Part shown: one piece after another, positions 11,105-31,121 of the stretch
Numbering within the stretch: position 1 is the first letter of the stretch
How the letters are laid out: the number at the start of each line of letters is the position of its first letter
IMG/VR virus record: IMGVR_UViG_3300035698_014689
Location: 1-64,000 of that record
Strand: one strand, 5' to 3'
Length of the DNA: 64,000 bases
Source: a virus
Position numbers and translations under genes: made by a program
Notes under the pieces: generated by a model
What the model was told of the DNA's origin: nothing
Database searches by the model: none
What the model saw: only the letters and a program-made list of their open reading frames with translations

Positions 11105-13465
11105 TCAGAATCTTTCCCTTCCTACTCCGAAAATCATTTTCTGGAGAAGCTTAGACAGTTGCGGAATCAGCGAGCCCATATCCTCAAACTTGATATAATG
11201 CTTGAACATTGATTCAGGATTAGCGGCTCCTATCGCAATCTGCATAATATGAACACCCTTCTTGGCAATATCATCCACGGATTTTTTCGTGGCCATCTTC
11301 GCCTCGTGACCTCCATAAGCACGACCGCTGGGCATTCCATCAGACAGCACCAGCATGAGCTTATTCGAGTGATCTGCATTTGCTAGAAATTCCTTCCCCA
11401 CAGTCTCTATCGCCTTATGGTCGTAGTTTTCCATGCAGTCCCGCCCGAAAAATGCAAGAGCCGACCTATCCTTTCGTTTTTTGCTGTAGTAGCGTCTGAT
11501 CAAACAGTTTTCGTTGTTTTCCCCGTAGGATGTGTGACTATAAATATGCAGGTCAATCCTCGGGATAGTCAACAGTGCCTCTTGCATTGCGAAGGCCATT
11601 GTCAAGGCTTTCTCAGCTTTGCATAATCTACCCTCAAAGTCTCCAACATAACCCATTGAACCACTTTCGTCGAGCAATAAACAAATACTCAAACCAACAG
11701 CCCGATGTCGCTCGGTAGTGCAGAACAAACGGGAAGTTGTTTTCGCCAAAGCCAGTCTTCGCTTATCCAGTTTCCCCTCACGCTTATCCCGAAACTTCCT
11801 TTCCAAGTCAGCCAGTCTCATACTGAAAACCCGTTGCATCTTCCTGATATGTGGACGACAAACCTTTTTCAATTTCTTGTAGGTCTCGTCAGTGTCTCCC
11901 TTTATCTTTGGCTCAACAGTAGCAACAGCACGTTCCCGCCCGAACTCATATCCCGTTTCCTCTACTGTGAATTTCTCCTCCTCAAGTGAACGAACACCAG
12001 CCCTGATTTTTTCCTCAACGGCATCAGCAAGAGTCATCTCGTCAATTCTCGATGCTTTGGTGAACTCCTCACCTCCATAACAACCCAGTTCCTTCCTCAA
12101 TTTCTCCGCGGCCTCAACATCCGCTTTCAATTCTTTAATCTCCTTTTTCAACTCTGCCTTTAGCTTCTCCTCCTCATGCTCAAGTTTCGCATCAGAACCC
12201 GCTTCAATTTTACGACCCATCTTTTCAGCATACTTTTTCTCTTTCTTGGCAATCTCAGTTTTAGCTCTTCTCAACTCCTCCTCAAGTTTCATCTCCTCTT
12301 TGATTGCTTTGATTTCTTCAGATGTGAAGGGCGTGGAAGAGGGGGAGCCACCACAGGACTCGCCCTCACCATCCGACCCTTCAGATTCAGGGGAGGGCTT
12401 TTCCTCAGTCCCACCATCCGAATCATCTCCCGATTCAGGCTTCCCAGCGCCTTCAGAGCTCTCAGACCCTCCCTCCGAGGTATCAGAGGATGGATAGCCT
12501 GAACCTCCCTCAGGTTTTCTCATTTCCTCGGGTTTGATCAATATCCCGAACATATCCAACAAGCTGTGAATCAATTGCTCTAATTTCAGAACATCCTCCC
12601 ACGTCTCCAATTGTCCGGAAGCGTCCATCATAAATTCATATGGATTGACTCCATCCCGTTCGAATTTTTTCATGGCGATTGTCAGCAACTGGGGACTCCT
12701 GAGAGCCATCATAACAATTGCGTGCGCTTTACTTCTTGGAGTCATGGGAGGATGCTCTTCACCAGTCTTCTCATCCGTGTAACCATCCCACTGCTTTATG
12801 ACATCAATAAGGTTATCCTCAAAAACAGCCTTTCTTGTTGCGGCTAGATAAAAGGCGAATCCATCACTTCTTTTAACGGCTATTATCTCAATTCGAACAT
12901 CCTCCACCAAGTTCAGACGCCCCTTCTTCTCAAAAACCTCATAGAAGTTTTCGTGCAACGGATGTGCCAGTATCCCCTTCCTCTCTTCAATCCACTTCGT
13001 AAACCCTTGGCTGGATAAAAGATGTTCAGCCTCGTGTATTCCGATGCCAGCATAAACATTCAATCTTTCTTTCGGATCAACTTTTTCGTACATTTCTTTT
13101 CCTAGGAATATCTGAGCACGCCCTCCGAGAACACCCTTGGCGGCTGATCCGCCAACCATATCAGTAGTGCAGATTTTAACGTCCACAGGAGCGGGAACAC
13201 CATGTATTCTTATCAGGTTATAGACGAAGTTTCGAATCTTTGTTAATTCGATTGCATCAGCTTCAGGAGTCATCTCTTTATGAGAGTCACGAAAACCAAA
13301 AAAGCTCCTTCCGAAGTAACCCTCCATTCTGTCTAGAGAATCATCAATCTCCCACCGATCAAAAAGCTCATCATTCTCATCGGCAATCCGCTTTGCCAGT
13401 TTCTTAGGTGCTTTCTTTTTCCCAGCGCCTTTCACAGCTTTCTTTATTTTTTCAATCATTGCCAT
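11105..13465 (-). CDS. metallopeptidase-like/VWA-domain protein, CobT-like partner of MoxR
   Basis: A 786-residue protein. Residues 138-200 carry GIGIHEAEH (HExxH at 144-148) and LVEDVRIE, a zinc-peptidase-like set as in DUF2201-type proteins. Residues about 320-400 are low-complexity Ser/Glu/Gly, followed by coiled coil. The C-terminus is a von Willebrand A domain with MIDAS DESGS (D599) and a later VLSDGMPSG. Such proteins pair with MoxR/CobS AAA+ ATPases, here the next gene upstream, to remodel target complexes. The phage target is unknown. Confidence 0.85.
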   Translation of the reverse strand: MAMIEKIKKAVKGAGKKKAPKKLAKRIADENDELFDRWEIDDSLDRMEGYFGRSFFGFRDSHKEMTPEADAIELTKIRNFVYNLIRIHGVPAPVDVKICTTDMVGGSAAKGVLGGRAQIFLGKEMYEKVDPKERLNVYAGIGIHEAEHLLSSQGFTKWIEERKGILAHPLHENFYEVFEKKGRLNLVEDVRIEIIAVKRSDGFAFYLAATRKAVFEDNLIDVIKQWDGYTDEKTGEEHPPMTPRSKAHAIVMMALRSPQLLTIAMKKFERDGVNPYEFMMDASGQLETWEDVLKLEQLIHSLLDMFGILIKPEEMRKPEGGSGYPSSDTSEGGSESSEGAGKPESGDDSDGGTEEKPSPESEGSDGEGESCGGSPSSTPFTSEEIKAIKEEMKLEEELRRAKTEIAKKEKKYAEKMGRKIEAGSDAKLEHEEEKLKAELKKEIKELKADVEAAEKLRKELGCYGGEEFTKASRIDEMTLADAVEEKIRAGVRSLEEEKFTVEETGYEFGRERAVATVEPKIKGDTDETYKKLKKVCRPHIRKMQRVFSMRLADLERKFRDKREGKLDKRRLALAKTTSRLFCTTERHRAVGLSICLLLDESGSMGYVGDFEGRLCKAEKALTMAFAMQEALLTIPRIDLHIYSHTSYGENNENCLIRRYYSKKRKDRSALAFFGRDCMENYDHKAIETVGKEFLANADHSNKLMLVLSDGMPSGRAYGGHEAKMATKKSVDDIAKKGVHIMQIAIGAANPESMFKHYIKFEDMGSLIPQLSKLLQKMIFGVGRERF

Positions 13466-13486
13466 TTTCTCGTCCTCATATTAAAC

Positions 13487-13502
13487 GTGCAATCAAGTGC
13501 AA
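13487..13502. promoter_or_regulatory. dyad GTGCA-N6-TGCAA (one mismatch)
   Basis: GTGCA ATCAAG TGCAA lies in the short gap between the MoxR stop and the VWA start, just upstream of the VWA ribosome site GAGGACGAG. One base departs from the perfect dyad. Confidence 0.45.
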
Positions 13503-13513
13503 TCCACAAACTC

Positions 13514-14908
13514 TTACATATAACTTTCTTTCTGAAAAATTTGGATCACTTTCACCCGTTCAGAATCCTCCCCACCCTCCTTCTCAAAACATCCAAAGAT
13601 GGAGGCTTCAATTGCGGCCTTTCTTGAAACGCTGTCATTCAGCATCTCACAGCAGTCTAAAAGCATTCTCGTCGAGATCATGGTATTGTACTCACCCTCC
13701 ACCGCCAGACTTCTCTGGGATGCGGCTATCTTGACCAGCTTTTTGATTTCGCCTGTCGGAACTGTCGGGAATCGGAGACGAATAATACGCTCCTCCTCGG
13801 CCTGAGGGGGATAGTCTAAATCAATTTTTACTTTGAATCTATCCAGAAGAGCCCTGTCCAAGGCCATCGTTCCAGTATACTCAACCCCGACGTTCGCTGT
13901 CGCCATGAAGGAAACTGCTTTCCCCTTATAAATTACAGAACCATCCTCCGACTCATCTAAGCTCATATATTCCTGTCTATCCATCAAGGGGAGTATCAGA
14001 TTAAAAGCATCGCTAGGAGCTCGTGTAATCTCGTCCCACAGCATAACACCCGAGGGCTTTTGCACAGATTGAACAAAACGGGATTGATTGAAGAACGTCC
14101 CTTTTTCAGCATTGAAGTGCGTGCTTCCTATCAAACTGGTTCTAGCTTCAGTCATTGCTCCGAAGTTGAAAGGCTCACATTCCACACCAAGGGCCTCAGC
14201 AACCAAGTAAACCAACTCGGATTTTCCTGAACCTGTCGGGCCTGTCAGGATTGCGTGTTTTCCACGATTACCACACCATAAGAGCTTCTCCCAGTTTTCC
14301 TTGGTGACGAAGAACTCTTCGGGAGTCTTCAAATCTTTCCAAACCATTCCAGTAGGTTTCGCGGGCTTGATCTCAGTCACATCTTTCTCAACAACAGGAG
14401 CACCCTCATTCTTCACAACCCGTTCGACAAAATCATCGGTCTCAATAGCCTTTGTCACATCGTCATTCACTAAGGGAAGGTCACGCATGAAAGCGTTCGT
14501 CAACTCCCTAGAAATTCTTGAGTGCGTTCTTATATCGCCCTCACCCATAGAGGAATAATTCTTCCCCTCCTTCATAGCTTGCAATATCTGCCATAGGTGA
14601 ACATCTTCTTTCGGCGGAGTCAAGAGAAAGAGTGAATCAGCTTCCAAGTTCTCAAGGACTCCTATGTCCTCTTTCTTTTCAGATAAGTCAAAGATAGTGT
14701 TTTTCTTCCCATCATTAACTCCCGACCATAACCCTCTCTTCACAATTGCAACATGCTCACAACTGCCCTTGACTCGGTGAGCGGCGCATTGGCAAGTCAA
14801 CTTTGTCTTATCTGATTTCACAGCAAAACCAATTTTAAGCGTCATGTCTGTGTTAAGAGCATGAACCACATATTTGATCCCAGCTTCAATTACTTGTACA
14901 AGATACAT
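13514..14908 (-). CDS. AAA+ MoxR/CobS-like ATPase with N-terminal SWIM zinc finger
   Basis: 464 residues. Residues 39-52 hold C39-x-C41...C50-x-H52, a SWIM zinc finger, usually a nucleic-acid or protein-binding module. Residues about 205-430 are the AAA+ core: Walker A GPTGSGKS (223-230), Walker B GVMLWDE (D292 E293), a sensor-1-like FMATAN, and ALLDRFKVKI. MoxR ATPases work with VWA proteins, and the next gene downstream is one. The ribosome site AATAGGAGGAAATTCG is strong. Confidence 0.9.
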   Translation of the reverse strand: MYLVQVIEAGIKYVVHALNTDMTLKIGFAVKSDKTKLTCQCAAHRVKGSCEHVAIVKRGLWSGVNDGKKNTIFDLSEKKEDIGVLENLEADSLFLLTPPKEDVHLWQILQAMKEGKNYSSMGEGDIRTHSRISRELTNAFMRDLPLVNDDVTKAIETDDFVERVVKNEGAPVVEKDVTEIKPAKPTGMVWKDLKTPEEFFVTKENWEKLLWCGNRGKHAILTGPTGSGKSELVYLVAEALGVECEPFNFGAMTEARTSLIGSTHFNAEKGTFFNQSRFVQSVQKPSGVMLWDEITRAPSDAFNLILPLMDRQEYMSLDESEDGSVIYKGKAVSFMATANVGVEYTGTMALDRALLDRFKVKIDLDYPPQAEEERIIRLRFPTVPTGEIKKLVKIAASQRSLAVEGEYNTMISTRMLLDCCEMLNDSVSRKAAIEASIFGCFEKEGGEDSERVKVIQIFQKESYM

Positions 14909-16213: not shown

Positions 16214-17614
16214 CTAAGTGGGCGTGTTATTCAGCCTGACGAATCCATAAGAAGACTCCAACGTGGCACTTGCTGAATTATATGACATACCGATGGAATA
16301 CAGCAGACACTTATATGACAGGGACTCGACTAACAGTGGAACTTGTACGACTGTATTCAACTCCATCAAATCAGGAATAAAAGGGCCTTTGGCTGACAAA
16401 GTACGACCCGACAGCAGAGCATCAAATAACGCCCTCTCACCGATCTCAGTTGCCTTAGCCGTGTCCTGAATATAAACGTTGTCAATAGTCATATAACGAA
16501 AGCCCGAAAGAGCCAGTTGAGCCGAGTCAGTAACGAGAACCTCAATCCTGTGCTCCGTCTGCTCGTCATCATGTTTCGCTATCTGCTCATCCCTTCTCCG
16601 TCCCATCATAGGGCCGTCGATACTCGCTTTCTTATCCATCGTCTTATTCGTTCCCTCTCCCAGTCCCGCAACACTGGAAGGGGCTCCAGCAGTAGTTCCA
16701 ACCTCGGGACGAGCTTCGATAGTGAAGACGACATTATTCATTGACGTGGAGCTGAACGTTCCAGTGAGCGCAACGTTGATCTGATTTCCCACAACACTCT
16801 CGACGACCCCCGAGTCCGCATCCCCCGAAATGATCGTCACCAGTGCGTTCATTGCCTGCTCTCGTGTGAAATTCCCCACCCCAGTGACAGCGACAACTGC
16901 GGTCGTGGTACTCGTAGATGAAAATTCCGTGGATTGACCATCGACTAAAGTTGACTTTCCTATATCTGAGCCAACAACATATCTTCCTCTCACCCTACAG
17001 AGGCTCGCCGTATAATTCTCAGAATCGGACAGACTCACCGGAGCCTGCAAGTCACCCTCGTCCAAAGTATACTCGACAGCGGAAGCATCATCCTTCTTCA
17101 AAGCCGTCACCAATTGACCCTGTCTGTTGATAAACATTTCAACATTACAAGCGTCCGCTATCTTCCTCACAGCGGTCAACAAAGAGTTCTCTGATATGTT
17201 GATGTCGCTAAAGGTCTCGGAATTATCGACAGAAACATCGAAATAAGCTGGGAGGACTCCTCCATAGGTTCCAAGTATGTATGCGAGTAAAGCGGAGCCA
17301 GTCATCGACTCAATCGTCTCCGACGTGATGGGACGGTGTCCCAGCAATTCAGGAATTGTGTTGACACCAATACTCACCGCCGAACTTCCCAGCAAATCAA
17401 AGGGAGGGGAAACGGAAACAACCCTTCCCAGAAAAGCCACGTATTCAGTGACTCCCCTTATAGCTGTCAGTGTCACCCGTTGACCGATGAGATTCTCAGT
17501 GTGTAAGGAATACTTGTTATCAGTATTATTAAGAATCACGGAAGCTGACGAACTGCTTTTTAAATCACGGCCCGTCCTCCAACTAATTATATCCTGCTTT
17601 ATTACACTAGCCAT
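16214..17614 (-). CDS. baseplate/tail hub-like protein
   Basis: A 466-residue protein beginning MASVIKQDIISWRTGRDL, with SASVILNNTDNKYS early on, typical of phage tail proteins that define an orthogonal beta domain at the tail tip. The middle holds LLAYILGTYGG, DVSVDNSETFSDINI, LLTAVRKIADACNVEMFI and GQLVTALKK, as in hub proteins of the gpD/gp27 type. The C-terminus ends SSYGFVRLNNTPT. It follows the tail gene set, which fits a distal tail role. It overlaps the 1219-residue glycosyltransferase by 8 nt. Confidence 0.65.
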   Translation of the reverse strand: MASVIKQDIISWRTGRDLKSSSSASVILNNTDNKYSLHTENLIGQRVTLTAIRGVTEYVAFLGRVVSVSPPFDLLGSSAVSIGVNTIPELLGHRPITSETIESMTGSALLAYILGTYGGVLPAYFDVSVDNSETFSDINISENSLLTAVRKIADACNVEMFINRQGQLVTALKKDDASAVEYTLDEGDLQAPVSLSDSENYTASLCRVRGRYVVGSDIGKSTLVDGQSTEFSSTSTTTAVVAVTGVGNFTREQAMNALVTIISGDADSGVVESVVGNQINVALTGTFSSTSMNNVVFTIEARPEVGTTAGAPSSVAGLGEGTNKTMDKKASIDGPMMGRRRDEQIAKHDDEQTEHRIEVLVTDSAQLALSGFRYMTIDNVYIQDTAKATEIGERALFDALLSGRTLSAKGPFIPDLMELNTVVQVPLLVESLSYKCLLYSIGMSYNSASATLESSYGFVRLNNTPT

Positions 17615-20600
17615 CTAACAAATCTCCTAATTTCATAACTTTTCTATTCACAAAAACGACCTCTTCCATTGAGAAAATACCTGACCCTCTCAACCTCTCA
17701 GGAGCTTTTCTCACAGCAACGAGAAACTTCTCATACAAAGGCGTTGCCACTCTGCGTAAAGTGCAACCTACACACCTTTTTCCAATAGCCTGAAAACCCT
17801 CCACCTTCTTCCTCACGTCATCAAAAGCGGGAAGCAGTTCGGGATAAACTCCCAAAACGGCGGTCTGCTTTTCCCAAAGCATGACACCATCCAGAGGCTT
17901 TTTTTCAACAGTCCGAATACGATGAGCTCTGTCAACAGGAGGGATAGGCGTAGGAGCGGGAGAGGGAAAGTGAGTTGGATCGTACGAACCACCCTTAAAC
18001 GGATCAACATTCACAGGCAGGCCAACCAACGCTGGTCGCACCACACCTCGTTTTTCCCCAGCAGTTTTACTCGGAGCATTCTTCTTGATTACGGATGCTT
18101 GAACGGAAGCGTTCACCCTCTTAGCTTGACGCTTCTTTTTCAATGCTAGATACATACCATCGGTACGCTCTTTCTCACTTAAATAAGTTTTCTTCTCAAC
18201 ATAGGTTACTGCTTCCTGCAAATCAACATAATCAAAAGCAGTCAAACCGCTACTCTCAACACAATTAAAAACTTGAACATTGTAAAAATCCAACTGCTCT
18301 TTAACAAGACTGAAAAATGTGTTGAGCATTCGATACGTTCTATTATTCGAACGACAACCTCCAGCGGATTTCCCCTGATCAAAAGCGTAAGGCTGTTCAT
18401 GTTCCATCTTGAAATCAGCACCAACAAGGAAAATCTTACGAAATCCTAGAACAACGAGCAACTTCATAGCAACCATCATAACACTACGAAGATTCGAGTA
18501 TGATTCTTTCCTATCCTCATCATTGATCTTAGTTGAACCAGTCAAACCCCACGAAAATTTATCATCGTCCAGCCACTGATCAACAACTGATGTTTTATTA
18601 CGATAATACTCAAGGACATTCGGACAATTCTTAGGTCGTATATTCGCTTCCTCATCCTTAATGGAATCCCATAAAGCTTGTTTGCTATGACCTCTTGATA
18701 TAAATTTCGTGATAGTCGGGTCTTTCCAAATACTCAGACAAAATCTGCTCGGTTCATCCACACATGTCCACAGGTCTGGACGAACCACCGAAGGACTGTT
18801 ATTCACTCCCATTTTCATGACTTTAGACTTATTCAAAAGGGAAGCTCTATCCTCCGTGGTACTTGGGCCGCTCAATATGAGGAAACACGAGGCATCCTTA
18901 TAAGAATCAACAAAGTCAATTGGAGTGGTAACACCCTCCCTGATGAAAACTGGATGTGAAGAGTCCTTTTTCCTGAGTGATTTGAAGGGCATATCCTCCA
19001 CTTCGAATTTCGAGAATAATTCCTGATAAAGAACCACATCCTCACCTATCCATGAACGTAATACACTCCAGTCAGGAGTATCAAAAGGCCAACCCTTTCT
19101 CGGATTGTGACCGATAGTATGTCCTTTTCGACAATCAGGCAGATTCTTAATTCCAACCGTGTACTTGACTTTGGAGGAAAACATCTTTTTCCTACCCTCA
19201 AAAGCATTCCAAAGAAGACGATCAACATACATGGACTTCTTCCCACAAACTCTCAACAAATCAGAAATAACAGACCGTCTAAAACCAGTCTGACACCATG
19301 CGGCATTGCTCTTGCTTCCTACCACCTTATACTGAGGAACGTCCCCCTTAAAAGAATAATAAGGAACGGTCTTCTGTCCATACAAATCAAACTCGTTCAA
19401 ACCCTCTGCAACCGTCTGAAGGTATTCAGGGTGATACCAGTCATCATCCTCGACAATAATCACTTTCTCGCCCGTCACATGCTTCAGAGCCTCCATCATA
19501 TTAACAGGCAGAGTATGTTTTGGATCATCCTCCCTAGGCTCCCTCCTAATATACTGAATGTTCATGCCCTGAACCAACTCCTCGGGGAGAGGTGTTTTAC
19601 CATCATCTACAACGATCCATTGAATGAAAGATTGCGTCTGTCTACTCATCCAAGTTCTACACAAAGTGAATGCTGATAATCTATCACCAGTGGGCGTGAT
19701 AATTGTGATACTCTCTTTCACCTTCGTTATATCGTCCACTCGAACCACTGAAAAGGCATCTCCGCCCTTCCCAGCTAAAAGGGGTTTTTCAGGGAAGCTC
19801 CAAGCATTGAAATAATTGATAAGCTGTTCTGTCTTCCCCTTGATGTTTCTAAGAGAGGGAGCATTCAATATCTTAGACGAAATATCATCGCGAACATAAC
19901 TCAAGTGGTGCATCTCTAACTCATCTCTTTGAAATTCCCTGACTTCTCCCTCGACTGACAAACCTCTTGAAGGATCGATATGAAAACTTGACTGATACTT
20001 GACATCAAAAGAAACACCACTACGAATTTTTTGAATAAAAGGAACATAGTATTCTTGCTTGGGCTCCAGTCGATAATAAGGTTTTTTCCAATAAGTGACC
20101 ATCCTACAAACAGACGTGTCAAAACCCTCTTTCTGCATCAAGCTCTTCGCTGAAGCAAATTGAATCGGCTCATAAAGCTCATCGGCTCCCATAAGCATGA
20201 AGTGAGTCATACCGAGTTTTCTCAATCTCTCCAGTCCTATATTCGCCTTAGTTATCTCCTGCCTTTTAGCACAGGCTTTCGTTGGAGTGTACTTGAGCAT
20301 TGAATCTATTCGACCCTCTTTTTTCAGGCCCCTCAATAAAGGCAGAAGCCTCTCAGTGCAGGGATTTCCCACAAAAGACTTCTCCTGATAAAGAACAAGT
20401 ATATGATCAGCGTTCTCCCTTACGGAAGTGATCGAAAGAGGTAGATTTTCCTCCCCATTGAAAACGGTGTAGATTATTCCCAACCTCATCTTTTTCCCCT
20501 CATAAAAAGAGGTGTGAAGCCAGTCCTCACCTATGTCAAAAAAAGACCTCATCTCATCCGAGACAGCATTATCAATCATGCCTATTTTCTTTTGCTCTTC

Positions 20601-21266
20601 ACGAATGATTTTACTTATCCCCTCAACAGTGAAATCGTGGGGAATTGAGGCTGGAGTATCTGTATTGCAGACAGTCTTAATTCCCATCAAACCCATCTCT
20701 ATGACACTGTTCGGCAAACCATCTTTTTTAGTCAAACGTAAACCCAAAAAGCATTGCTTATAAAGAGAGTGCATCTCCTTCCAGTCAAAACTCTGCAAAG
20801 AAGAGCAGAGAAACTCTATGTCGGGGTGCTTCGCCATCACAGCTTCACACAAATCAAAACCAAAACTCTTTTTTCTTCTTTCAGACCCGTAATAAATATA
20901 TATCTTATTCCCTTTTTTGACTGGAACAAATGGATCATGTAAAGTGTGAGTGACATGCAATAAAATACTTTCGCTGGTAAACATCTCAAGGCGAGCTTTC
21001 ATCTGATTAGAGATAGCAATATGAAATATGTTTTCTCTTTGAAAAAGACTGGGGTGTTTCTGCGCAACTGCGAGGTCGGAACCCATCCAAACAATCACAA
21101 CGAGTCCTTTATGATCCAACACAAAAGAAACGTCACTACTGTCATAAACTCCGAAACAGACGACAGGGTTGGAACTAGACGTGCAATCTGAAAAGCCAAA
21201 TTTTTTCCTCAGATGTGGCTCAAAGAATCGAACGGAATCACTCACATGAAATTGCGTTATTTTCAT
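17607..21266 (-). CDS. multidomain glycosyltransferase, 1219 aa
   Basis: At least four domains in series. Residues about 30-255: GT-B/GT4-like (IYYGSERRKKSFGFDL, GLPNSVIEMGLMGIKTV). 262-465: GT2-like (LGIIYTVFNGEENLPLSI, MGADELYEP). 518-720: GT2 (SITIITPTGDRLSAF, VEDDDWYHPEYL with acidic triad near 607). 785-1010: DUF115/Maf-like domain (FLILSGPSTTED, GFRKIFLVGADF). The C-terminal region has a CVGC pair. The gene lies between Cys/Trp-rich tail proteins and a hub protein and probably glycosylates virion or host glycans. Confidence 0.85.
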   Translation of the reverse strand: MKITQFHVSDSVRFFEPHLRKKFGFSDCTSSSNPVVCFGVYDSSDVSFVLDHKGLVVIVWMGSDLAVAQKHPSLFQRENIFHIAISNQMKARLEMFTSESILLHVTHTLHDPFVPVKKGNKIYIYYGSERRKKSFGFDLCEAVMAKHPDIEFLCSSLQSFDWKEMHSLYKQCFLGLRLTKKDGLPNSVIEMGLMGIKTVCNTDTPASIPHDFTVEGISKIIREEQKKIGMIDNAVSDEMRSFFDIGEDWLHTSFYEGKKMRLGIIYTVFNGEENLPLSITSVRENADHILVLYQEKSFVGNPCTERLLPLLRGLKKEGRIDSMLKYTPTKACAKRQEITKANIGLERLRKLGMTHFMLMGADELYEPIQFASAKSLMQKEGFDTSVCRMVTYWKKPYYRLEPKQEYYVPFIQKIRSGVSFDVKYQSSFHIDPSRGLSVEGEVREFQRDELEMHHLSYVRDDISSKILNAPSLRNIKGKTEQLINYFNAWSFPEKPLLAGKGGDAFSVVRVDDITKVKESITIITPTGDRLSAFTLCRTWMSRQTQSFIQWIVVDDGKTPLPEELVQGMNIQYIRREPREDDPKHTLPVNMMEALKHVTGEKVIIVEDDDWYHPEYLQTVAEGLNEFDLYGQKTVPYYSFKGDVPQYKVVGSKSNAAWCQTGFRRSVISDLLRVCGKKSMYVDRLLWNAFEGRKKMFSSKVKYTVGIKNLPDCRKGHTIGHNPRKGWPFDTPDWSVLRSWIGEDVVLYQELFSKFEVEDMPFKSLRKKDSSHPVFIREGVTTPIDFVDSYKDASCFLILSGPSTTEDRASLLNKSKVMKMGVNNSPSVVRPDLWTCVDEPSRFCLSIWKDPTITKFISRGHSKQALWDSIKDEEANIRPKNCPNVLEYYRNKTSVVDQWLDDDKFSWGLTGSTKINDEDRKESYSNLRSVMMVAMKLLVVLGFRKIFLVGADFKMEHEQPYAFDQGKSAGGCRSNNRTYRMLNTFFSLVKEQLDFYNVQVFNCVESSGLTAFDYVDLQEAVTYVEKKTYLSEKERTDGMYLALKKKRQAKRVNASVQASVIKKNAPSKTAGEKRGVVRPALVGLPVNVDPFKGGSYDPTHFPSPAPTPIPPVDRAHRIRTVEKKPLDGVMLWEKQTAVLGVYPELLPAFDDVRKKVEGFQAIGKRCVGCTLRRVATPLYEKFLVAVRKAPERLRGSGIFSMEEVVFVNRKVMKLGDLLDG

Positions 21267-21275: not shown

Positions 21276-21893
21276 TTACTTTAATACTTTCGCACAATGC
21301 TCTTTCGGCAACATCAAATGCGGAAAGAAAGGTGCAACCAATTGCATCGCATCCTCATCTGCTTTCTCCAATCCACCTTTCTCTCCATTCGTGGTCATAT
21401 CAAGCCATGATTGAATGAAAACAGACTCCTTCTTAAAACCTATGATCCGTGGATCAATAGGAACCTTGAAATTATTCACAACTGAATTGACTGAAGGAAA
21501 AATGCTTGCCCATTTTAAAAGCCTTTTATACTTCACGTGATCAGTCAGTAATATATGCTCAGTATTCATAAAAAGCAAACCGGAATCATCAAGCTGTTTC
21601 CAAATAGTGCTAGGGAAACTTTTGAAAATCGTGCCGTTCCGCACAAAAAGAGTCAACTCAAAAGGAGTGTATCTCAAACCTCTGACCAACAGAATCCTCG
21701 GAGAAATACCTGCCGCTTTAATTACCTGACAATCAAGATCGAATCTTTTCTTCAGATCAGCTACGACGAGAAGGTCAATGCCATCCATATACACCTTCAC
21801 TGGTCCATCATAAAATAGCCTCAAAGATTTCAGTGTGTCTTCAAATTCACTCGCTTCGTCAGCCATCACGAACATCAAAATTCCCTTACTCAT
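21276..21893 (-). CDS. small GT-A-like glycosyltransferase
   Basis: A 205-residue protein; ATG at 21893 is chosen because AGGAG lies 6 nt upstream. The start MSKGILMFVMADEASEFEDTL resembles the nucleotide-binding strand of GT8-like enzymes, and the later VPIDPRIIGFKKESVFIQSW and MNTEHILLTDH segments fit a sugar-transfer fold. A clear DxD is not seen, so activity is uncertain. It is coupled to the 1219-residue enzyme. Confidence 0.5.
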   Translation of the reverse strand: MSKGILMFVMADEASEFEDTLKSLRLFYDGPVKVYMDGIDLLVVADLKKRFDLDCQVIKAAGISPRILLVRGLRYTPFELTLFVRNGTIFKSFPSTIWKQLDDSGLLFMNTEHILLTDHVKYKRLLKWASIFPSVNSVVNNFKVPIDPRIIGFKKESVFIQSWLDMTTNGEKGGLEKADEDAMQLVAPFFPHLMLPKEHCAKVLK

Positions 21894-21907
21894 TCTGTAC
21901 TCCTTTA

Positions 21908-23809
21908 TTAAGTGTAAATCGGCGGATAAGTTCCAGCACAAGCGTCCTTCGGAGACGATACCGTCCAGTCGGAGGTGATCGGCCCCTGTCTACGAACCTT
22001 CAGCACTGATCTTGGATCACCTGTGGCAGGGCTTGAATAATTCTCGATCACAGGACAGACATCATCTCTAAAAACAATAGTCGGCCCTACGACTATACAG
22101 TCATCATGACCCATGATCGTCCCAGTTGCATTCAGTCCACTATAATAATAATAAGACCAATAATAATAACCTCTAACCCACGGCCCGTCAATAGGCTCCA
22201 AACCACGCGGCTCAGGAACAGATGAAAGACATAAACAAGTCGATAAATCGGGCAGAGCATCCACCGCCTCGGAACTTGATCCGTCAGGGGGACAGACATA
22301 ATCCTCGGGACTCCAATCATCATAAGAAGACTCTGAACTGTTGACTGGTATTTCTCCTGACAACTCCTGTGTTCCCTCCCCATTATTATATATGCCAAGA
22401 ACATCTTTAAATGGTAATCTCTTTCCAATAAATCGAACATCATCAAGCTCAATCAAAACAGTGCTATTTGCGGAAAAAATGGCGGATGTTCTCAAGGGCT
22501 CCTGAGTTAAGTCCGTGGGCCAGTCATAAGTCTGATAAAGCTGGGTTATATACTGGCCTAACCACATATCACTAAACGTCCAAAATTCGTCCATGAAATA
22601 AACATCATTAGTCTGCGTGTAACTAGACCAAGGAGTGAGCTTCCTCGCATCGAGATAAACCTCCAAACCATCTTCCTCGGAAACATTCGCCACTACATTA
22701 TAGAATGTGTCGGGATCATAGTCCTGAGGCGTTGACATAAATACCGCTCTTGATCGCATAGAGGGGGAGTAACTAACATTCACAGCCAACTGTCCACCAG
22801 TGATCACGAGCGAGATTTGAAACTGACTTCTGTGATCATGTCGATAGTAATCCGTCCAACGACAATCCATAGCACAGATATACTGAGCATAAGGACGAGT
22901 CTCGCCACTGGGAAAGTCGGGAATCATCGCCCAAGCTGAGACGGAAAAAGCTTTCCCCATTGTCTCATTGAACCGCTGACGCAACTGGACTGCTGGACTT
23001 GCTTGAGAACCTGACAAACGGATAGCACCTGCGATTTTACCCTCAACACCCTCAACATTACCAGTTACAACCGTACCATCTATCCCAAGGTCATTCCCTA
23101 TGACTTCACTGCCTGCAACAGCTGATTCTGAAGGCTGTGAAACACTGCTGTCGAAGTCATCCATTCTATAATGAGCCACAATATCGTCAGCAACAGTCCA
23201 CAACGTGTCCTTAACACACAAATCACCCCACCAGTGCCAAGTGCAAACACCCTCGTCACAATCCTCGTAAATCCACTTATTCGCATCATCCTCATTCTGC
23301 TTCTTTTCACATGTATAAATCAAACTTTCAGCTGTGTAACTCCAAACATCAAAAACAGAATCGTATGTCACATCAGTGTAACACCTAAGCTCCTCCTCAA
23401 ACTCCTGTGATGAGAATGAAGAAACAGGATCATCAGATTCATCTACACTGATTGAATCACCACTACTCAATTCGGGCCAGTCACAAATTCCACATTCAGA
23501 ATAATCTGGCCACGATGAGGGTCGCGCCTCTCCTATGCAATCAGGATAAACGAAAGTCTCACCACTCACCCATGTCCATTGACACGTTCCCGCCTCTACA
23601 TCCAAAGCCGAGAGAGTCCATGTATCTATTCTTGATTCTCGGTCACTTTTCGTACAACCAGCGGCTGTCTTCACAGCAGTCTTAACCTCATCACTCTCAG
23701 AGCAATAAAGTGTTACATGCCATACTGGATGACTCAACGTCGCATCCGCTAAAGTGCAGTCACCTATCGGAGGCATCGTATCAGGTTGGTCGTTACATTC
23801 ATAAGCCAT
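21908..23809 (-). CDS. LamG-containing Cys/Trp-rich tail protein (paralogue 3)
   Basis: 633 residues. Residues 27-91 carry the HPVW module (HPVWHVTLYC...CQWTW...YPDCIG). Residues 143-198 carry the CYT module (RCYTDVTYDSVFDVW ... WIYEDC ... CTWHWWGDLC). Residues about 205-470 form a laminin-G-like domain (DIVAHYRMDDF, FSVSAWAMI). A Tyr-rich segment (YYYWSYYYYSG) lies near the end. Location after the tape measure and the LamG fold suggest a surface-exposed receptor- or glycan-binding tail protein. Confidence 0.75.
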   Translation of the reverse strand: MAYECNDQPDTMPPIGDCTLADATLSHPVWHVTLYCSESDEVKTAVKTAAGCTKSDRESRIDTWTLSALDVEAGTCQWTWVSGETFVYPDCIGEARPSSWPDYSECGICDWPELSSGDSISVDESDDPVSSFSSQEFEEELRCYTDVTYDSVFDVWSYTAESLIYTCEKKQNEDDANKWIYEDCDEGVCTWHWWGDLCVKDTLWTVADDIVAHYRMDDFDSSVSQPSESAVAGSEVIGNDLGIDGTVVTGNVEGVEGKIAGAIRLSGSQASPAVQLRQRFNETMGKAFSVSAWAMIPDFPSGETRPYAQYICAMDCRWTDYYRHDHRSQFQISLVITGGQLAVNVSYSPSMRSRAVFMSTPQDYDPDTFYNVVANVSEEDGLEVYLDARKLTPWSSYTQTNDVYFMDEFWTFSDMWLGQYITQLYQTYDWPTDLTQEPLRTSAIFSANSTVLIELDDVRFIGKRLPFKDVLGIYNNGEGTQELSGEIPVNSSESSYDDWSPEDYVCPPDGSSSEAVDALPDLSTCLCLSSVPEPRGLEPIDGPWVRGYYYWSYYYYSGLNATGTIMGHDDCIVVGPTIVFRDDVCPVIENYSSPATGDPRSVLKVRRQGPITSDWTVSSPKDACAGTYPPIYT

Positions 23810-23820
23810 TTTATTTTCCT

Positions 23821-24738
23821 TTATTCACAACAACACATCGCCACATAATAACCGCCATCATATATCACATAATGCGACTGAGAACAGGCCCCTGTATAAC
23901 CATACCAAGGGGGAAATACAGTAGCGCAATAATTATCACAATCAGCGGCTCCAGCGGCATCCGCTTCAGCATAAGTATCATAACCAGCATAAAGTTCGGG
24001 AGAACAACCAGCTGTGCAAGCAGTGGGAGGCTCCGGTTCTGAACTCGGTGGCGGATCAGAACTCGGTGGTGGATCAGAACTCGGTGGTGGATCAGAACTT
24101 GGTGGTGGTGGTGCTGAACCACTTGAATCATCTGAATCAGAAGGTTCTATACACTCGTCGCCCCACCAGTGCCAATTACATACTCCGCCCGTCTCACCAT
24201 CATAAATCCACTCATGCAGAGGTTCATTGAGATACCCTCCCGACTTATTCACACACGTCATCGTCAGGTTAGCCGGATTATCTTTCTTCCATTGATTGAA
24301 AGTCGCATCAAACCACTGCTCCGTATAACAACGCATATCCTCATACGCGTCCGTCTCCTCCTCTCCCGACGAATAGTCATCACTGCCGTCCGACAACAGA
24401 ATTGAATCACTTGAGTCAACGCAAGTGCATTGCGAATAATCGGGCGTTGACGTCGGACTATCGTTTCCAAGGCATTCAGGCCATTGATACTCCTGCGAGC
24501 AGACCCATCTCCACACACACGTCGTATCATCGTCTAGGATCAACTCCCACACGTCGTAATCGTAATTCGAGTAAGTTGTACAAGTGGAACTCGTTTTGAC
24601 CGCCACATCCGCTCCACAGAGCAATGTCACCTTCCAAACAGGATGACGCATCGTCGGATCAGCGGACGGACAAACCCCTGTGTCGGGATATGCCGAAGGT
24701 GTCTCCGCATTACAAACTTTTCCTGTACAATCAGCCAT
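23821..24738 (-). CDS. Cys/Trp-rich tail protein with PPPSSD repeats (paralogue 2)
   Basis: 305 residues. HPVW module at 31-90 (HPVWKVTLLC...CVWRWVC...WPECLG), CYT module at 136-197 (RCYTEQWFDATFNQW ... WIYDGETGGVCNWHWWGDEC), then a PPPSSD repeat linker at about 209-237, and a Cys-rich tail ending CCCE. The linker looks extended and is a plausible acceptor for O-glycans made by the neighbouring enzymes, which is inference. It starts 11 nt from its paralogue. Confidence 0.75.
   Translation of the reverse strand: MADCTGKVCNAETPSAYPDTGVCPSADPTMRHPVWKVTLLCGADVAVKTSSTCTTYSNYDYDVWELILDDDTTCVWRWVCSQEYQWPECLGNDSPTSTPDYSQCTCVDSSDSILLSDGSDDYSSGEEETDAYEDMRCYTEQWFDATFNQWKKDNPANLTMTCVNKSGGYLNEPLHEWIYDGETGGVCNWHWWGDECIEPSDSDDSSGSAPPPPSSDPPPSSDPPPSSDPPPSSEPEPPTACTAGCSPELYAGYDTYAEADAAGAADCDNYCATVFPPWYGYTGACSQSHYVIYDGGYYVAMCCCE
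24041..24112. repeat. 18-bp tandem repeat, 4 copies
   Basis: Four consecutive 18-bp units of the type GAACTCGGTGGTGGATCA (plus strand) encode PPPSSD on the minus strand; the last unit is diverged. Copy-number changes here would lengthen or shorten a linker in the tail protein without changing frame. Confidence 0.85.
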
Positions 24739-24756
24739 CTTCTTTTCCCCTTTTTC

Positions 24757-25605
24757 CTAGAACATACAATCGTCGTCTTGACAGAGAGTATGCGTCGCAT
24801 AAGGACCACTAATAATCTCTCTGACAGTGTGGATCATACACAACCCTGTGCCGGGGTTAAACATTGAGCAGAAGCAAGGGTCTTCGCCTTCAGTGAAATA
24901 AATGCAGAACGTATCCAAACCAACCAGATCGCCAGCAGTAGGATCGGTGTAGCCTGGAACATAACTCCAAACCTTGCAACAGTACCAGCCAGCTTCAAGG
25001 GGCTCGGAACTACTTACGTCTACACATTCATCACTCCACCTATGCCAGTAACAAATCCCGCTAGAACTATTATCTCCATCATAAATCCAAACATTCAAAG
25101 CCTCAGCTTTCGTCCTCACTCTACATGACCAAGTCAACTTATCCAAACTAGACTTACTCCATTGATCAAATATCGCATCATAATTAAGAGTCGTATAACA
25201 ATTACATTCTTGTTCCTCAGAGGGAATATCAGAAGGGGGCGGTTCAGGAGAATCGGACGGAGGCACAGATATCGATGTCTCACAATCACAATCAATAGGG
25301 AATTCGGGAGGTGTCTTCAAACCACCTCCCCCTTCACAGTCCTCCCCAGCTTGACAACCAAGAGAACCATCCCCGCAGGTTATCAACTCATATAAACATA
25401 AAACACTCGTCTGTGATTTCAAATACCAAGGGACTTCAGTACAAGCGGAAACACATTGAGAACTTACGGCTGAAACCGTTCCCCATGTGCCAGCAACGCA
25501 ATCATACGTAACCTGATAAGTCCACATGCAGTAACGCACCTCGGACTCACTTGTTCCGCCACTCGACTCACAACAGTCACACTGATTTTTAATTTGTAAT
25601 GCCAT
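24757..25605 (-). CDS. Cys/Trp-rich tail protein (paralogue 1)
   Basis: 282 residues. The N-terminal part has a diverged W-x-V-T-x-x-C module (CMWTYQVTYDC ... TWGTV ... CVSACTEVPW). A Pro/Ser linker (PPSDSPEPPPSDIPS) follows, then the CYT module at 134-195 (CNCYTTLNYDAIFDQW ... VWIYDGDNSSSGICYWHRW). About 22 Cys suggest disulfides or metal ligands. It belongs with the next two genes to a tandem paralogue set of unknown family. Confidence 0.75.
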   Translation of the reverse strand: MALQIKNQCDCCESSGGTSESEVRYCMWTYQVTYDCVAGTWGTVSAVSSQCVSACTEVPWYLKSQTSVLCLYELITCGDGSLGCQAGEDCEGGGGLKTPPEFPIDCDCETSISVPPSDSPEPPPSDIPSEEQECNCYTTLNYDAIFDQWSKSSLDKLTWSCRVRTKAEALNVWIYDGDNSSSGICYWHRWSDECVDVSSSEPLEAGWYCCKVWSYVPGYTDPTAGDLVGLDTFCIYFTEGEDPCFCSMFNPGTGLCMIHTVREIISGPYATHTLCQDDDCMF

Positions 25606-25612: not shown

Positions 25613-26623
25613 CTATCCTACAAAAGCGATACCATTTCTAAACTTAAGCGTCAACGCCTCTATTAAATAACAGCCATCAACCTCCCCAGTGATAACGGCA
25701 AAATCCCACGTGCCAGTCAATCTATCACCAACCTGTTGATCAGAGCCTCCCGAACCCCCTCCCGAACCCCCTCCTGAACCTCCTGAACCACCCGAATCCT
25801 CATCCAGTCCATCAACTGTGACATCAATCGTGGTAACGCACTCTACGCCCACGTCTATTTCGTGAACATATTCAATCGTATATGTGCCTTTTTCAGTGTC
25901 GGGGCCTATGGAATAAGACGTGCCAAGTTGATTCGTCGTGGAGTCTAACGAGAACGGCCCTGCGGGATTTCCCGAGGCCATCCTCCAAAAAACCGTATTC
26001 ACTGGTGAGCATTCAGTATCATAAGAAGGGGCGGCGATCAACGAACCCCCTACATCAGTGTCCCTATTCACGGACTGCGCTCCTGACAAAGCGACTATCA
26101 CTGAAACACAAGAAGTGCAGGCAGGTGAGGGGCCTCCACTCTGATCCGTATAAGAAAAACTTGTTTCCTGAAAACTACTCCCACTTGGCTCATCACTAGA
26201 CTCCTCAGTCTCAGGCAAACCAACACCACCCGAAGGAATATACAACTTGAACGTCCATGCTTCGGAAGCTTCAGATGCGCATCCGTCATCACTATAAGCG
26301 ATCACCCGCCAATAATGGGCTGTATCAAGAAAAAGATCTTCCCCATATTCAAAAGTTTTCGCTAAAGTCTCAGAGGATAAAATCTTATAACCCTTGGTCT
26401 GCGTTCCTCTGAAATCCGAAGACAGTCCAAATTGCAAAACATAAAAATCCGCATCAACTACAGCTTGCCATTTTACAGTAACATCATTTCCTGAATAAGC
26501 TACGACAGTCTCAGCTTGATCCAACGGAGACAAAAGAAGTGGCGTTGCGAGAATGCAGTTACTAAATAACGTCTCATCCTCAATTAAAACAATCGTATCA
26601 TTTATCAGCAATTCAGTGCTCAT
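25613..26623 (-). CDS. fibronectin/Ig-like distal tail protein
   Basis: 336 residues. Residues about 28-130 look like a fibronectin type III domain (LLSPLDQAETV, VTVKWQAVVDADFYVLQF, HYWRVIAYSDDG). A Ser/Glu linker and a second Ig-like domain (VFWRMASGNPAGPFSLDST, GTYTIEYVHEID) follow. A Gly/Ser repeat (GGSGGSGGGSGGG) precedes a compact C-terminal beta domain. Such domains are common on exposed phage tail surfaces. It overlaps the next structural gene by 4 nt. Confidence 0.7.
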   Translation of the reverse strand: MSTELLINDTIVLIEDETLFSNCILATPLLLSPLDQAETVVAYSGNDVTVKWQAVVDADFYVLQFGLSSDFRGTQTKGYKILSSETLAKTFEYGEDLFLDTAHYWRVIAYSDDGCASEASEAWTFKLYIPSGGVGLPETEESSDEPSGSSFQETSFSYTDQSGGPSPACTSCVSVIVALSGAQSVNRDTDVGGSLIAAPSYDTECSPVNTVFWRMASGNPAGPFSLDSTTNQLGTSYSIGPDTEKGTYTIEYVHEIDVGVECVTTIDVTVDGLDEDSGGSGGSGGGSGGGSGGSDQQVGDRLTGTWDFAVITGEVDGCYLIEALTLKFRNGIAFVG

Positions 26624-26991
26624 ACAGCCGTACCCCAGCTAGACGTTGAAATTATCTGAAAAGAACCCGACACATCGAAAAGACCAGCGGCATACGCCTT
26701 CGGAGAGTCAAAGATCAAGAATTTTACCGTGTGTGCGTCTCCCCAGTAGCCTGTGAACGATAAGTCGGGACTAAGGGGATCATTGAACAGTGTCAGGAGT
26801 TCAACGTATTCAGCCCTCGTAGCGGCTTGAATATCCCACCCTATCGAAGAGTCACCCGCCACAATCGTGGGAGCAGTGTGTATTCTGATCCCTCCAGCAG
26901 TCTGAACAACCTTCTTTCTTTTGGAAGGAACAGCGGGCTTATAAGAAAACTGACAGGGCAGTGTCACCGAACCAATATGCGCTTGTAACAT
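26620..26991 (-). CDS. distal tail protein
   Basis: 123 residues; ATG at 26991 shares a base with the tape-measure stop (TGATG), and the GGAGG site lies in that gene's end. The sequence (MLQAHIGSVTLPCQFSYKPA, VQTAGGIRIHTAP, GWDIQAATRAEYVEL, GYWGDAHTVKFLIFD) has the beta-rich composition of small tail-tip proteins encoded just after the tape measure. The role is from position and composition. Confidence 0.6.
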   Translation of the reverse strand: MLQAHIGSVTLPCQFSYKPAVPSKRKKVVQTAGGIRIHTAPTIVAGDSSIGWDIQAATRAEYVELLTLFNDPLSPDLSFTGYWGDAHTVKFLIFDSPKAYAAGLFDVSGSFQIISTSSWGTAV

Positions 26992-29900
26992 CAAATACCT
27001 CCGTTAAATGCTTTCTTCTCAAACTCGTTTTGAATAACCCGTTTCAACTCCTCAACGTCCACATTATTATTCACGTTCATATCCAGTTTACGATTATCGT
27101 TTAGATTTCTCACACCCTGAGAACCATGTCCACCTATTCCCCCAACATTAGACGAGGCCAAACGATCCACAGGACTTGAACCCGCTCCAAGCAGTTTGGA
27201 GAGTTGTGACGAGGGTGACTGCGGGAGAACGTACTCCCCAGCATGAAGCAGATAATCCTGTGTCTTATCAATAAATCCGCCAATAGCTTTCGAACGCTTC
27301 TTCTCCTTTGAAGCAGAATCCACGGAACTCTTCAACTCAGTGGCTTTCAGCATCAAAGCCTCTATCCTAGCCATTGCCTGAGTGACGAATGCTTCGACGG
27401 CTCCCCAACCAGTCTGTAATCCCGTCAGCAAAGCGTTCATCATGGAGATACCAGCCTCGGTCATCTTCGGAACCTGAGACATCACGACCTCTTGTATTTT
27501 AACAACAGTTTCCTGCACGCCAATCTCAGTCTCTGCGGAAGCTGTTTTAATTCCTTCCATGTCAACCTGAGTCTCTTCCTTCTGAACCTCAACCTTCGCC
27601 TTAATCTCATCTGATTTGGCGGCCAATTCATCCCAGCGTGCCATCTCTTTTTCTGTCATATCCTCTTTCTGAGATAAGTCCTCGAATTCCTTGGCATCCT
27701 CCTTGCTCAATTTCTTGGCAGGAGCATCCTCGGCATCAGGGAGAGCTGTAGGCTTAGAAAGAGTTGAGTCGGCCTCCGTCTTATCATCACCAGTCAATTT
27801 CTTTTTCGCACCGTCGATAAGATCATTTGTAGCCTTCGCTAATTCTTTCATACTGGCTTTCAAGTCATCCTGACGTTTCATCTCCAATTGATGCGCTTTC
27901 TCAGCTCCTGCGAGTTGAGCCTTCAGATCGTTGAGTTTCTTCGTCCTAGCAACCTCGGCCAATCTAGCCAGTTCCTTCTCTGCGGCAACTGCGGCTTTCT
28001 TAGCATCAGGAATAGCCTTACGAGCTTTTTTCTCATCAGACCACATCTTCCTTCGTTCCGCATCAAGGTCACGAAGATCAGACTTATATTTTGCGATCTT
28101 ACGATCCTGTGTTGCCTCCCCTCTGCCATCCTTAGGACGCTTCTTTTGTCCCTCTTCAAACATTCTTCTTTGAATGGCCTGCATTTTCTTTTCTATGGAC
28201 AAACGCTTACGATGTGACTGCGTGGCAACACGTTCATTAGCACTAATCTTTTTGTTGGCTTCGGAAAGAATATCCTGAGTGGCTTTTTTATGTGCGTTAT
28301 CCTGTAAACGAACTACCTCTGAAGCAATCTGTTCACGCAAAGACAAAATCGTAGTCATCAAGTCATGTGTCTTTTGAACGGAGTCCTTAAACTCAGCGGC
28401 ATTATCATTCATCTTTTGTTGATGAAGATCAATCTGCTGTTGATTCTTCTGATCCGCACTTGCTTGGGCCTGTTCTACGTCCGCATCATAATACTCATTG
28501 AGCATGTCGAGTTTCGTCTGCTGTTGAAAAGACAGTCCCTCAGTACCCGAAGCGATGGCATCCAGTTTCCCCTTCTCGGCAATACGCTCATCAGCAGATA
28601 ATCCAACCAACTTCGCACGAACGCTTTCCTGATTCTTCAAGTCACCTAATTGCCGTTTCGTGAGTATCAAGGCTTTCTGCTCCTCATCGGTCAACCATCC
28701 ACGTGCTTTTTTGATGTCATTGAGACGCTGTATCTGAGCATCTAATTGAGCCGTCCCCATACCTCCCACATTCATGCTGAAAAGGGCTTGGAATTGTTTC
28801 AATGTATTCTTCGCTTGACCGCTGACCTTTCCTAGTAGGTCATAAATATATTCGATACCACCAGTCATAACCTTAATAGCAGTTTGAACGACGGGACTAT
28901 TAAAAACGGAAACTAAGACAGCCCCGAATTTAACGAAATACGTCATAACCTTGATCAGGACTTCGATAAGTGAGAGAAGCAGGCCTATCACCATTCCTAA
29001 CGATTTTCCCACGACCGTACCCATCCAACCCATGACACCCTTAATTGAATCTCCGAAAGAGCCAAACTCTCCCCCAGCAAATCCAAGTAACTCACCAAGA
29101 GAAGAGAAAAATTCACCAAGGGCTTGACCAAGACTATTGAAAGAGTTTTTAATCGGGCCCCAAAAGCTAAGAAGCGCCTGCCAAAAGTTCTTGAAATATC
29201 CAGTAGCGGCTTCTACTCCAAATTCTATCACTCCCCACACGACACTTAGAACACTGGCAAAAGCTCGAAAACCTTCCTCAACAACAGACATCCCACTTGT
29301 CAAACCACTAAAGTCCAACTCCCCAAACATCTGCTGAACCTCGGCAATCGTTTTAACGATGGTATTGAAAATCCGCATGACGATAGGGCCAATAGCAGAC
29401 CACACGATCTCTATACCTGTTTTAATCACATCAACGAGACCGCCGATCAATCCGATAACCATTGCGATCCCGCCTTGAACGACACTCACCACAATTTTCC
29501 ATAACTGCTGAATTCTCAGGAGAAACTCTTTCCCAGTATCGGTGGCGAACATCTTTTTCAATGTTGCGATGATTGTGTCAGCAACAGAGACAACACCAGC
29601 GGCTAATGCTTTGAATATGCCTATCACACCGCCTATCATGCTCTTTATTCCGTTCATCAGTTCCATTTGTTTCATAAAGCCTAAAATCGCTTTGTGCGAC
29701 TTTATAATAACAGTGGCGAAAACAGCGAACGCCGCTCCGATAGCGACAACGACCGCAATAATAGGAGCCAAAGATGCAAGGCTAACACTTCCGACTGCCG
29801 CTAAGATACCTCCAACGAAAGAGATCGCACCAGCAACGGCAGTGAGCAGAAAAGAGACCAGTATCAAAGAGCCTCCGATACCCGCCAAAGCAGTTCCCAC

Positions 29901-31121
29901 AGCCGTACCTATTATAAGAATTGAACCAACGAGCTCCTGATTCAATTTGATCCAACGAACCATCGGCTGAATGATATTATAATTCAGGAACGTAATCATC
30001 TTCTTCATACCCGAAGATTCCAAGGCTTTTCCTATCGAAGCAAACATCGCCTCCATCGTAGAGGAAAGCAGAACCATCGAACCCTCAAGAGTATCGAGGT
30101 TGTCGCTCTCTCTTTGTGCGGCTGAAGCGGCTCCATCCATAGCCCTCATTATATTATCGGCCTCTGCTGGCATAGCTTGCATCACAGCGAGAGTAGTCAA
30201 ACCCCTGACCCCGAATAAACGGGAAGCTTTCGCCATACGTGTCAAACCCGCTTCAGCAACGTTCTCCATTGCTTTCTTCAGACCAACCGCCTTAGGATCG
30301 ATGTCCTCCATCGTTTTCCCAACCGAGGCAAGACGTGCTTTTACGAGATTCAAATCCTCGGCACTTCTTGCGGGAAGGGCTACTAATTTCTCATACACTT
30401 GACGTAAACCAGTGGCGGATAGACGACCTGATCCAATAATCTTATTCACAGCTCCAAAGGTTGCGAGAAGTTCTCTTTGTGATTGATCCGTTTTTCCCAC
30501 CTGAACAGCAACCCCCGCCATCTGCTTCATAAAGAATTCAAGGTCGGGAGCCTCTACACGTGCGGCGGCTTGTAAGTCGGTTAAGTTATTAACAACACGT
30601 GAGATATTTCGTGCGCTGTATTTCGCTGTCTTATCCATACCAGCTGAAAACATCTCGATACTTGAGATTGCTATTCCAGTGGCTTGGGGAAGTTCTACTC
30701 CAAGAGCTCCAGCGAGCTGTAAAGTATAAGTATTCATTTGCAGAATGGCTTCTCTATTAGTTATCCCCGAAGAGACAATAAGACGAGTCGCCTCCCACAG
30801 CTGTTTTTGCGTCCATTTAGTCTTTAAACCAAGTTCCTCAATTGAATCACCCAGTTTATTCCAATCGCCCTGAGAGGCCCCTGCAATTGATCGTGCCTCC
30901 TGCATTTGCTGTTGAATACCAGCCCACGTGGATAAGCCCTTCTTAGCGATCAGTCCAAAGGTTCCAGCAATTGCGGCTCCCGCCATTGTGAATTGCATAC
31001 CAGCGGAACGCATTGCGGCTCCAGCGGAAGCGACCTTTGCGGATAACGCACTAAGCTGTGTAACTGCCATCGTGGTATCAGCACGAACAGTTAAAATCGC
31101 TTCTCCTAGAGACTTAGACAT
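26991..31121 (-). CDS. tail tape measure protein
   Basis: 1376 residues. It has an N-terminal chaperone-binding-like helix region, a TP901-type phage domain (ATRLIVSSGITNREAI, LPQATGIAISSIEMFSAG, about residues 90-330), hydrophobic stretches near 400-480 and 550-720, and long coiled coils with Lys/Glu/Ala near 900-1150. The C-terminus has AIGGFIDKTQDYLLHAGEYVL. The length predicts a tail of roughly 200 nm by the usual relation, an inference. It overlaps the second chaperone frame by 8 nt. Confidence 0.9.
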   Translation of the reverse strand: MSKSLGEAILTVRADTTMAVTQLSALSAKVASAGAAMRSAGMQFTMAGAAIAGTFGLIAKKGLSTWAGIQQQMQEARSIAGASQGDWNKLGDSIEELGLKTKWTQKQLWEATRLIVSSGITNREAILQMNTYTLQLAGALGVELPQATGIAISSIEMFSAGMDKTAKYSARNISRVVNNLTDLQAAARVEAPDLEFFMKQMAGVAVQVGKTDQSQRELLATFGAVNKIIGSGRLSATGLRQVYEKLVALPARSAEDLNLVKARLASVGKTMEDIDPKAVGLKKAMENVAEAGLTRMAKASRLFGVRGLTTLAVMQAMPAEADNIMRAMDGAASAAQRESDNLDTLEGSMVLLSSTMEAMFASIGKALESSGMKKMITFLNYNIIQPMVRWIKLNQELVGSILIIGTAVGTALAGIGGSLILVSFLLTAVAGAISFVGGILAAVGSVSLASLAPIIAVVVAIGAAFAVFATVIIKSHKAILGFMKQMELMNGIKSMIGGVIGIFKALAAGVVSVADTIIATLKKMFATDTGKEFLLRIQQLWKIVVSVVQGGIAMVIGLIGGLVDVIKTGIEIVWSAIGPIVMRIFNTIVKTIAEVQQMFGELDFSGLTSGMSVVEEGFRAFASVLSVVWGVIEFGVEAATGYFKNFWQALLSFWGPIKNSFNSLGQALGEFFSSLGELLGFAGGEFGSFGDSIKGVMGWMGTVVGKSLGMVIGLLLSLIEVLIKVMTYFVKFGAVLVSVFNSPVVQTAIKVMTGGIEYIYDLLGKVSGQAKNTLKQFQALFSMNVGGMGTAQLDAQIQRLNDIKKARGWLTDEEQKALILTKRQLGDLKNQESVRAKLVGLSADERIAEKGKLDAIASGTEGLSFQQQTKLDMLNEYYDADVEQAQASADQKNQQQIDLHQQKMNDNAAEFKDSVQKTHDLMTTILSLREQIASEVVRLQDNAHKKATQDILSEANKKISANERVATQSHRKRLSIEKKMQAIQRRMFEEGQKKRPKDGRGEATQDRKIAKYKSDLRDLDAERRKMWSDEKKARKAIPDAKKAAVAAEKELARLAEVARTKKLNDLKAQLAGAEKAHQLEMKRQDDLKASMKELAKATNDLIDGAKKKLTGDDKTEADSTLSKPTALPDAEDAPAKKLSKEDAKEFEDLSQKEDMTEKEMARWDELAAKSDEIKAKVEVQKEETQVDMEGIKTASAETEIGVQETVVKIQEVVMSQVPKMTEAGISMMNALLTGLQTGWGAVEAFVTQAMARIEALMLKATELKSSVDSASKEKKRSKAIGGFIDKTQDYLLHAGEYVLPQSPSSQLSKLLGAGSSPVDRLASSNVGGIGGHGSQGVRNLNDNRKLDMNVNNNVDVEELKRVIQNEFEKKAFNGGI

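Follow-up and report, generated by a model that had tools for sequence, protein, structure and literature searches.

The locus raises the question of what three consecutive genes of an uncultured virus, lying among tail genes and sharing small Cys/Trp-rich modules, may contribute to the particle, and how their common part and their different ends divide the work. The window analysed here, 64,000 nucleotides long, comes from an IMG/VR virus record (IMGVR_UViG_3300035698_014689) whose full length is 94,886 bases. P0003, P0002 and P0001 are real, adjacent genes of the minus strand, read in that order:

24757..25605, minus strand: P0003, 282 aa, with a Cys-rich N-terminus, a linker, module B and a unique Cys-rich C-terminus (residues 197-282)
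23821..24738, minus strand: P0002, 305 aa, with module A, an acidic Ser-rich linker, module B, a PPPSSD linker and a Cys-rich C-terminus
21908..23809, minus strand: P0001, 633 aa, with module A, a linker, module B, a putative LamG part of about 290 aa and a 143-aa C-terminus

An earlier note, made from the letters alone, had described the module B pattern in all three genes and a second module in two of them, and both descriptions agree with what was found. The pattern of module B is literally present in the genes at 21908, 23821 and 24757; 18 of its approximately 62 columns are invariant across the three proteins, and the pairwise local scores of 151, 147 and 153 are far above the shuffled maxima of 56, 60 and 48 (300 shuffles each). 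Module A is confined to P0001 and P0002, which align in a single block from about residue 5 to residue 200 with a score of 361, the shuffled maximum being 80. The N-terminus of P0003, compared as a third module A by profile and by shuffles, has a similar spacing of cysteines and a score that is not significant. The clear copies in the three proteins, five in number, are as follows:

25024..25200, minus strand: module B of P0003 (CYT...C-x-WH-x-W-x-D-x-C)
24472..24645, minus strand: module A of P0002 (HPVW...C-x-W-x-W...C)
24151..24330, minus strand: module B of P0002
23537..23731, minus strand: module A of P0001
23216..23383, minus strand: module B of P0001

Both modules contain four conserved cysteines, with C-x-W beginning at the third. 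Such a set of cysteines, together with the conserved His of module B, might be taken for a zinc-ribbon-like metal site assembled in the reducing cytoplasm instead of a disulfide-bonded core. Zinc ribbons usually have paired CxxC knuckles, however, whereas the cysteines here are scattered across some 60 residues with no such pairs, and no Pfam zinc family was matched, so that metal binding seems very improbable.

Profile-profile comparison of module A with module B gave an E-value of 0.0026. The match of module A of P0001 to the B profile was equalled by none of 2000 shuffles, and that of A1 to B1 by none of 500. A single domain probably gave rise to modules A and B as distant copies; the kinship is graded as probable and not as proven because the remaining A/B pairs were weaker. 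In the common part, P0001 and P0002 show 41% protein identity, and Cys and Trp account for 15 of the 39 invariant columns. The third codon positions of this part are merely 35-41% identical in all pairs, which indicates that the duplications are old. Judged by their sequences, P0001, P0002 and P0003 are old tandem paralogues within one genome. The similarity of P0001 and P0002 ends at about residue 200, P0003 joins them at module B and leaves them at the same point, and past it each of the three proteins has a different end. The idea of domain shuffling on an exposed tail surface, put forward in the earlier note, holds as regards a common part joined to different ends; no shuffling between phages is seen, and the sharing found is tandem paralogy in one genome.

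The attached parts do differ in the way first described as far as the PPPSSD linker and the Cys-rich ends are concerned, but the LamG domain attributed to P0001 has no Pfam match:

24041..24108, minus strand: PPPSSD linker of P0002, encoded by an 18-bp tandem repeat (3.8 copies)
22400..23197, minus strand: putative LamG-like stretch of P0001

By eye, residues 205-470 or so of P0001 resemble the plan of Laminin_G_3 (PF13385), a concanavalin-like lectin domain of phage tail proteins. Pfam matches to this family above the curated cut-off occur in the related phages G001 and G022, but not in P0001. Comparison with a profile of three LamG domains gave an E-value of 0.38, with contact just at a stretch resembling the LamG lYvdG strand; the comparison had little power, since the same set-up missed known LamG domains among themselves. 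The model of the 292-aa part had a pLDDT of 37.6, and at E<=0.001 it matched nothing in the PDB. The LamG identity of this putative domain is neither confirmed nor excluded. Homology of the ends of P0001, P0002 and P0003 to a Cys-rich end of G001 was also considered, and was unsupported by shuffling.

For the modules themselves, structure prediction had been proposed as a way to see a disulfide or metal core, and it did not yield a usable fold. AlphaFold2, run on the three-row alignment, reached a pLDDT of 37.3; the drawn strands form a Trp hairpin at like positions in both modules, but at this pLDDT the hairpin is no evidence. The Foldseek matches of the models of the modules and of the LamG part are meaningless at a pLDDT of about 37.

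The genes surrounding P0001-P0003 are arranged in the order tape measure, Dit-like, FN3-like, P0003-P0002-P0001, GT2 region and hub:

26991..31121, minus strand: tape measure protein, assigned by size, position and synteny
26620..26994, minus strand: P0005, Dit-like minor tail protein, conserved in nine relatives
25613..26623, minus strand: P0004, FN3-like, the first protein after Dit, with an N-terminal domain conserved in relatives
21276..21896, minus strand: 206-aa protein of the variable slot, with no family match
17607..21266, minus strand: 1219-aa protein of the variable slot, with a GT2 domain
16214..17614, minus strand: P0006, hub-type tail protein, which closes the slot

PHROG labels were obtained for the major tail protein region (32168), a tail assembly chaperone (31443), a tail protein (16214, hub-type), the capsid and the terminase, several of the matches being weak. 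The major capsid protein shows 28% identity to that of Streptomyces phage LukeCage (Stanwilliamsviridae), and the LukeCage order of capsid, major tail protein, chaperone, tape measure, a 131-aa minor tail protein and further minor tail proteins is the order of the window. Judging from these labels and this gene order, P0001-P0003 occupy the tail-tip end of an operon of siphovirus type, in accordance with their first description as tail proteins. Inspection of their N-termini revealed no signal-peptide-like stretch.

Several other genes of the phage deserve mention. An 834-aa protein encoded before the tail genes (36031-38535) gave an F5/8 type C-like (discoidin) hit that stays under the curated cut-off. 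Two adjacent head genes, for a Mu F-like protein and the portal (46921-49626 and 49628-52414), each contain an intein-like insert; Pfam Intein_splicing was matched in both inserts, the Mu F match staying under the curated cut-off, and the portal insert has a LAGLIDADG match and the Mu F insert a DUF559 match. At 11105-14908, a CobT-like VWA protein adjoins a protein whose N-terminus is SWIM-like (Cys/His) and which has AAA-type ATPase motifs; the two form a phage-encoded pair of the MoxR/VWA type, in which the SWIM/AAA neighbour was read from sequence. The phage is rich in glycan genes, which lie at 40409-43372, 55939-61000, 7491-8126 and 17607-21266; they include a GT9 plus GT1-type fusion, a DegT-type aminotransferase, weak GT1-like matches, an FkbM methyltransferase and the GT2 protein.

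The modules had been said to have no known name, and the profile searches bear this out. Neither module matched any Pfam family at E<=1 or any NCBIfam family at 0.1, and no PDB entry is related to them in sequence. The one PHROG match, to phrog_6163, a family of 84 positions, is marginal: it covers 29 residues of P0002 (176-204, E=0.0096), appears in one of the three paralogues and falls short of covering the module, and no function is attached to the family. Searches with tblastn gave no match in 50,697 phage records or 72,556 plasmids, and scans of IMG/VR and of 84,980 GTDB genomes with exact peptide seeds from module B and P0002 gave no confirmed relative. Scans of this kind, for which the seeds came from module B, P0002, MCP, hub and Dit, work only with exact peptides, and records very near the window may be missing from them, so that absence means no close relative and not no relative. 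Whole-record HMM searches for the modules in 25 relative records, which were weak for want of a positive control, returned nothing. The 44 matches to C-x-WH-x-W-x-D-x-C in IMG/VR DNA were rejected as relatives, most of them being in short frames and none having the rest of the module. As far as found, the modules form an orphan family confined to this phage. Hits confined to phage tails, which the earlier note had named as support for a new adhesion domain, did not appear; within the limited reach of the seed-based scans there is no homologue in other phages.

The surroundings of the modules can nevertheless be compared, since the scans with the Dit-like profile and the capsid protein led to nine uncultured phages with tail regions; L014 and L015 share one such region. 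In each of the nine, an FN3-like protein comes after the Dit-like gene; seven of the FN3-like proteins served to build the FN3 profile, which leaves the matches of L008/G001, L014 and L017 as the independent ones. A hub homologue lies further on in the window and in G001, L012, L013, L014, L016, L019 and L020. Where the hub was located, the content between the FN3 gene and the hub varies from phage to phage and the flanks are constant. For L017 and L018, in which the hub was not located, these genes are placed just as downstream of the FN3 gene. No homologue of the modules, of the LamG-like part or of the C-terminal parts of P0001-P0003 could be detected in the slots of the relatives, which encode unrelated Cys-rich proteins and, in most cases, also glycosyltransferases, methyltransferases or a sulfotransferase. 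Unrelated genes at this place are as expected for fast-changing host-contact genes. The scan of GTDB genomes with Dit gave no match, and therefore no host can be proposed.

Two of the relatives have unusual proteins at this place. In L018, the FN3 protein (7831-11733) has 1301 aa and 113 cysteines, with poly-Thr linkers between C-x-W-x-W units; like P0001-P0003, it is Cys/Trp-rich with low-complexity linkers and its unusual part is placed after the FN3 domain. For its C-terminal 511 aa, tblastn found nothing in the phage collection, and its C-x-W-x-W units show no demonstrable homology to modules A and B beyond composition. In L017, an 885-aa protein encoded after the FN3 gene (11919-14573) contains about 320 residues of mucin-like Ser/Thr repeats and is followed by a sulfotransferase-like gene.

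The enzymes encoded downstream of the FN3 gene in the relatives (GT1, GT2, GT17, methyltransferase, sulfotransferase), together with the mucin-like Ser/Thr runs of L017 and the poly-Thr runs of L018, suggest another role for the slot, that of a virion-glycosylation cassette decorating Ser/Thr/Pro-rich linkers of the tail tip, in which the Cys/Trp modules would be protease-resistant spacers. Glycans on phage particles have a precedent in mycobacteriophages Che8 and Rita, for whose major capsid proteins they are reported (PMC11256854, citing Freeman et al. 2023). The argument from proximity is, however, weakened by the glycosyltransferases elsewhere in this phage, since proximity may reflect a general richness in such genes; moreover, no cassette enzyme was found in G001, and host glycans or DNA may be what the enzymes modify. 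Virion glycosylation is here a live but weaker idea, and a slot devoted to it, with the modules as spacers, appears quite unlikely. A broader version, also unlikely, is that the region from FN3 to hub is a dedicated, fast-exchanged cassette, in which orphan Cys/Trp multi-module proteins are paired with glycan-modifying enzymes of their own to give each phage a self-designed glycosylated adhesive tip, modules A and B being a new small fold born in this lineage.

With chances that we consider about even, P0001-P0003 are tandem paralogues of a tail-tip attachment protein with a common docking base and variable ends contacting the host. The common N-terminal base would consist of one or two small Cys/Trp modules, in each of which the four conserved cysteines would probably form disulfides once the cell has lysed and Trp side chains would pack the core. 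These bases would dock at the same site of the virion, near the FN3-like protein and Dit, and the different C-terminal parts, partly on flexible Ser/Pro/Asp linkers, would reach the host surface. Several tips on one base may allow one particle to recognise several or changing surface glycans.

This arrangement is of a known kind. For phage receptor-binding proteins (tail fibres and tailspikes), a conserved N-terminal anchor with a distal receptor-binding part is documented (PMC12692247). P0001-P0003 likewise have a common N-terminal half and different C-terminal halves, and they are tandem genes of the tail operon, beside Dit and before the hub gene, in a slot that changes while its flanks stay. 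Unlike known anchors, the one here would be a Cys/Trp-rich orphan module, and host binding and a trimeric fibre form are putative. The kind of system is thus known, and the sequence family is an orphan.

The position of the modules is central to the choice between a base and a binder. Carbohydrate-binding modules, too, are typically small Cys-rich domains with exposed Trp, and on that view the common part would be the binder. The Cys/Trp modules would then themselves be adhesive and lectin-like, their repetition giving avidity for a host polysaccharide and the ends being accessory. The retention of Trp, His and Asp in C-x-WH-x-W-x-D-x-C of module B, the repetition of the modules, their joining by flexible Ser/Pro/Asp stretches and the handling of glycans by neighbouring genes of the slot are consistent with this possibility, which we regard as tenable yet doubtful: no carbohydrate-binding family and no sequence-related solved structure was matched, and the common part is N-terminal and constant, whereas a binder is expected to vary. 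Because the common part is N-terminal and the variable part C-terminal, the modules are as plausible a docking base as an adhesive surface. The docking base is preferred on account of the common N-terminal half, the different ends, the linkers, the tail-tip operon and the changing slot; it has against it that P0003 lacks a demonstrable module A, which leaves module B alone as common to all three proteins.

If the docking-base reading is right, P0001-P0003 would represent another, sequence-novel solution to the common problem of equipping one siphovirus tail with several receptor-binding tips, and the slot between the FN3 protein and the hub would be a fixed place at which to look for new adhesins in related uncultured phages. 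Glycosylation of the tail becomes a testable idea through the presence of glycosyl-, methyl- and sulfotransferases at the same location.
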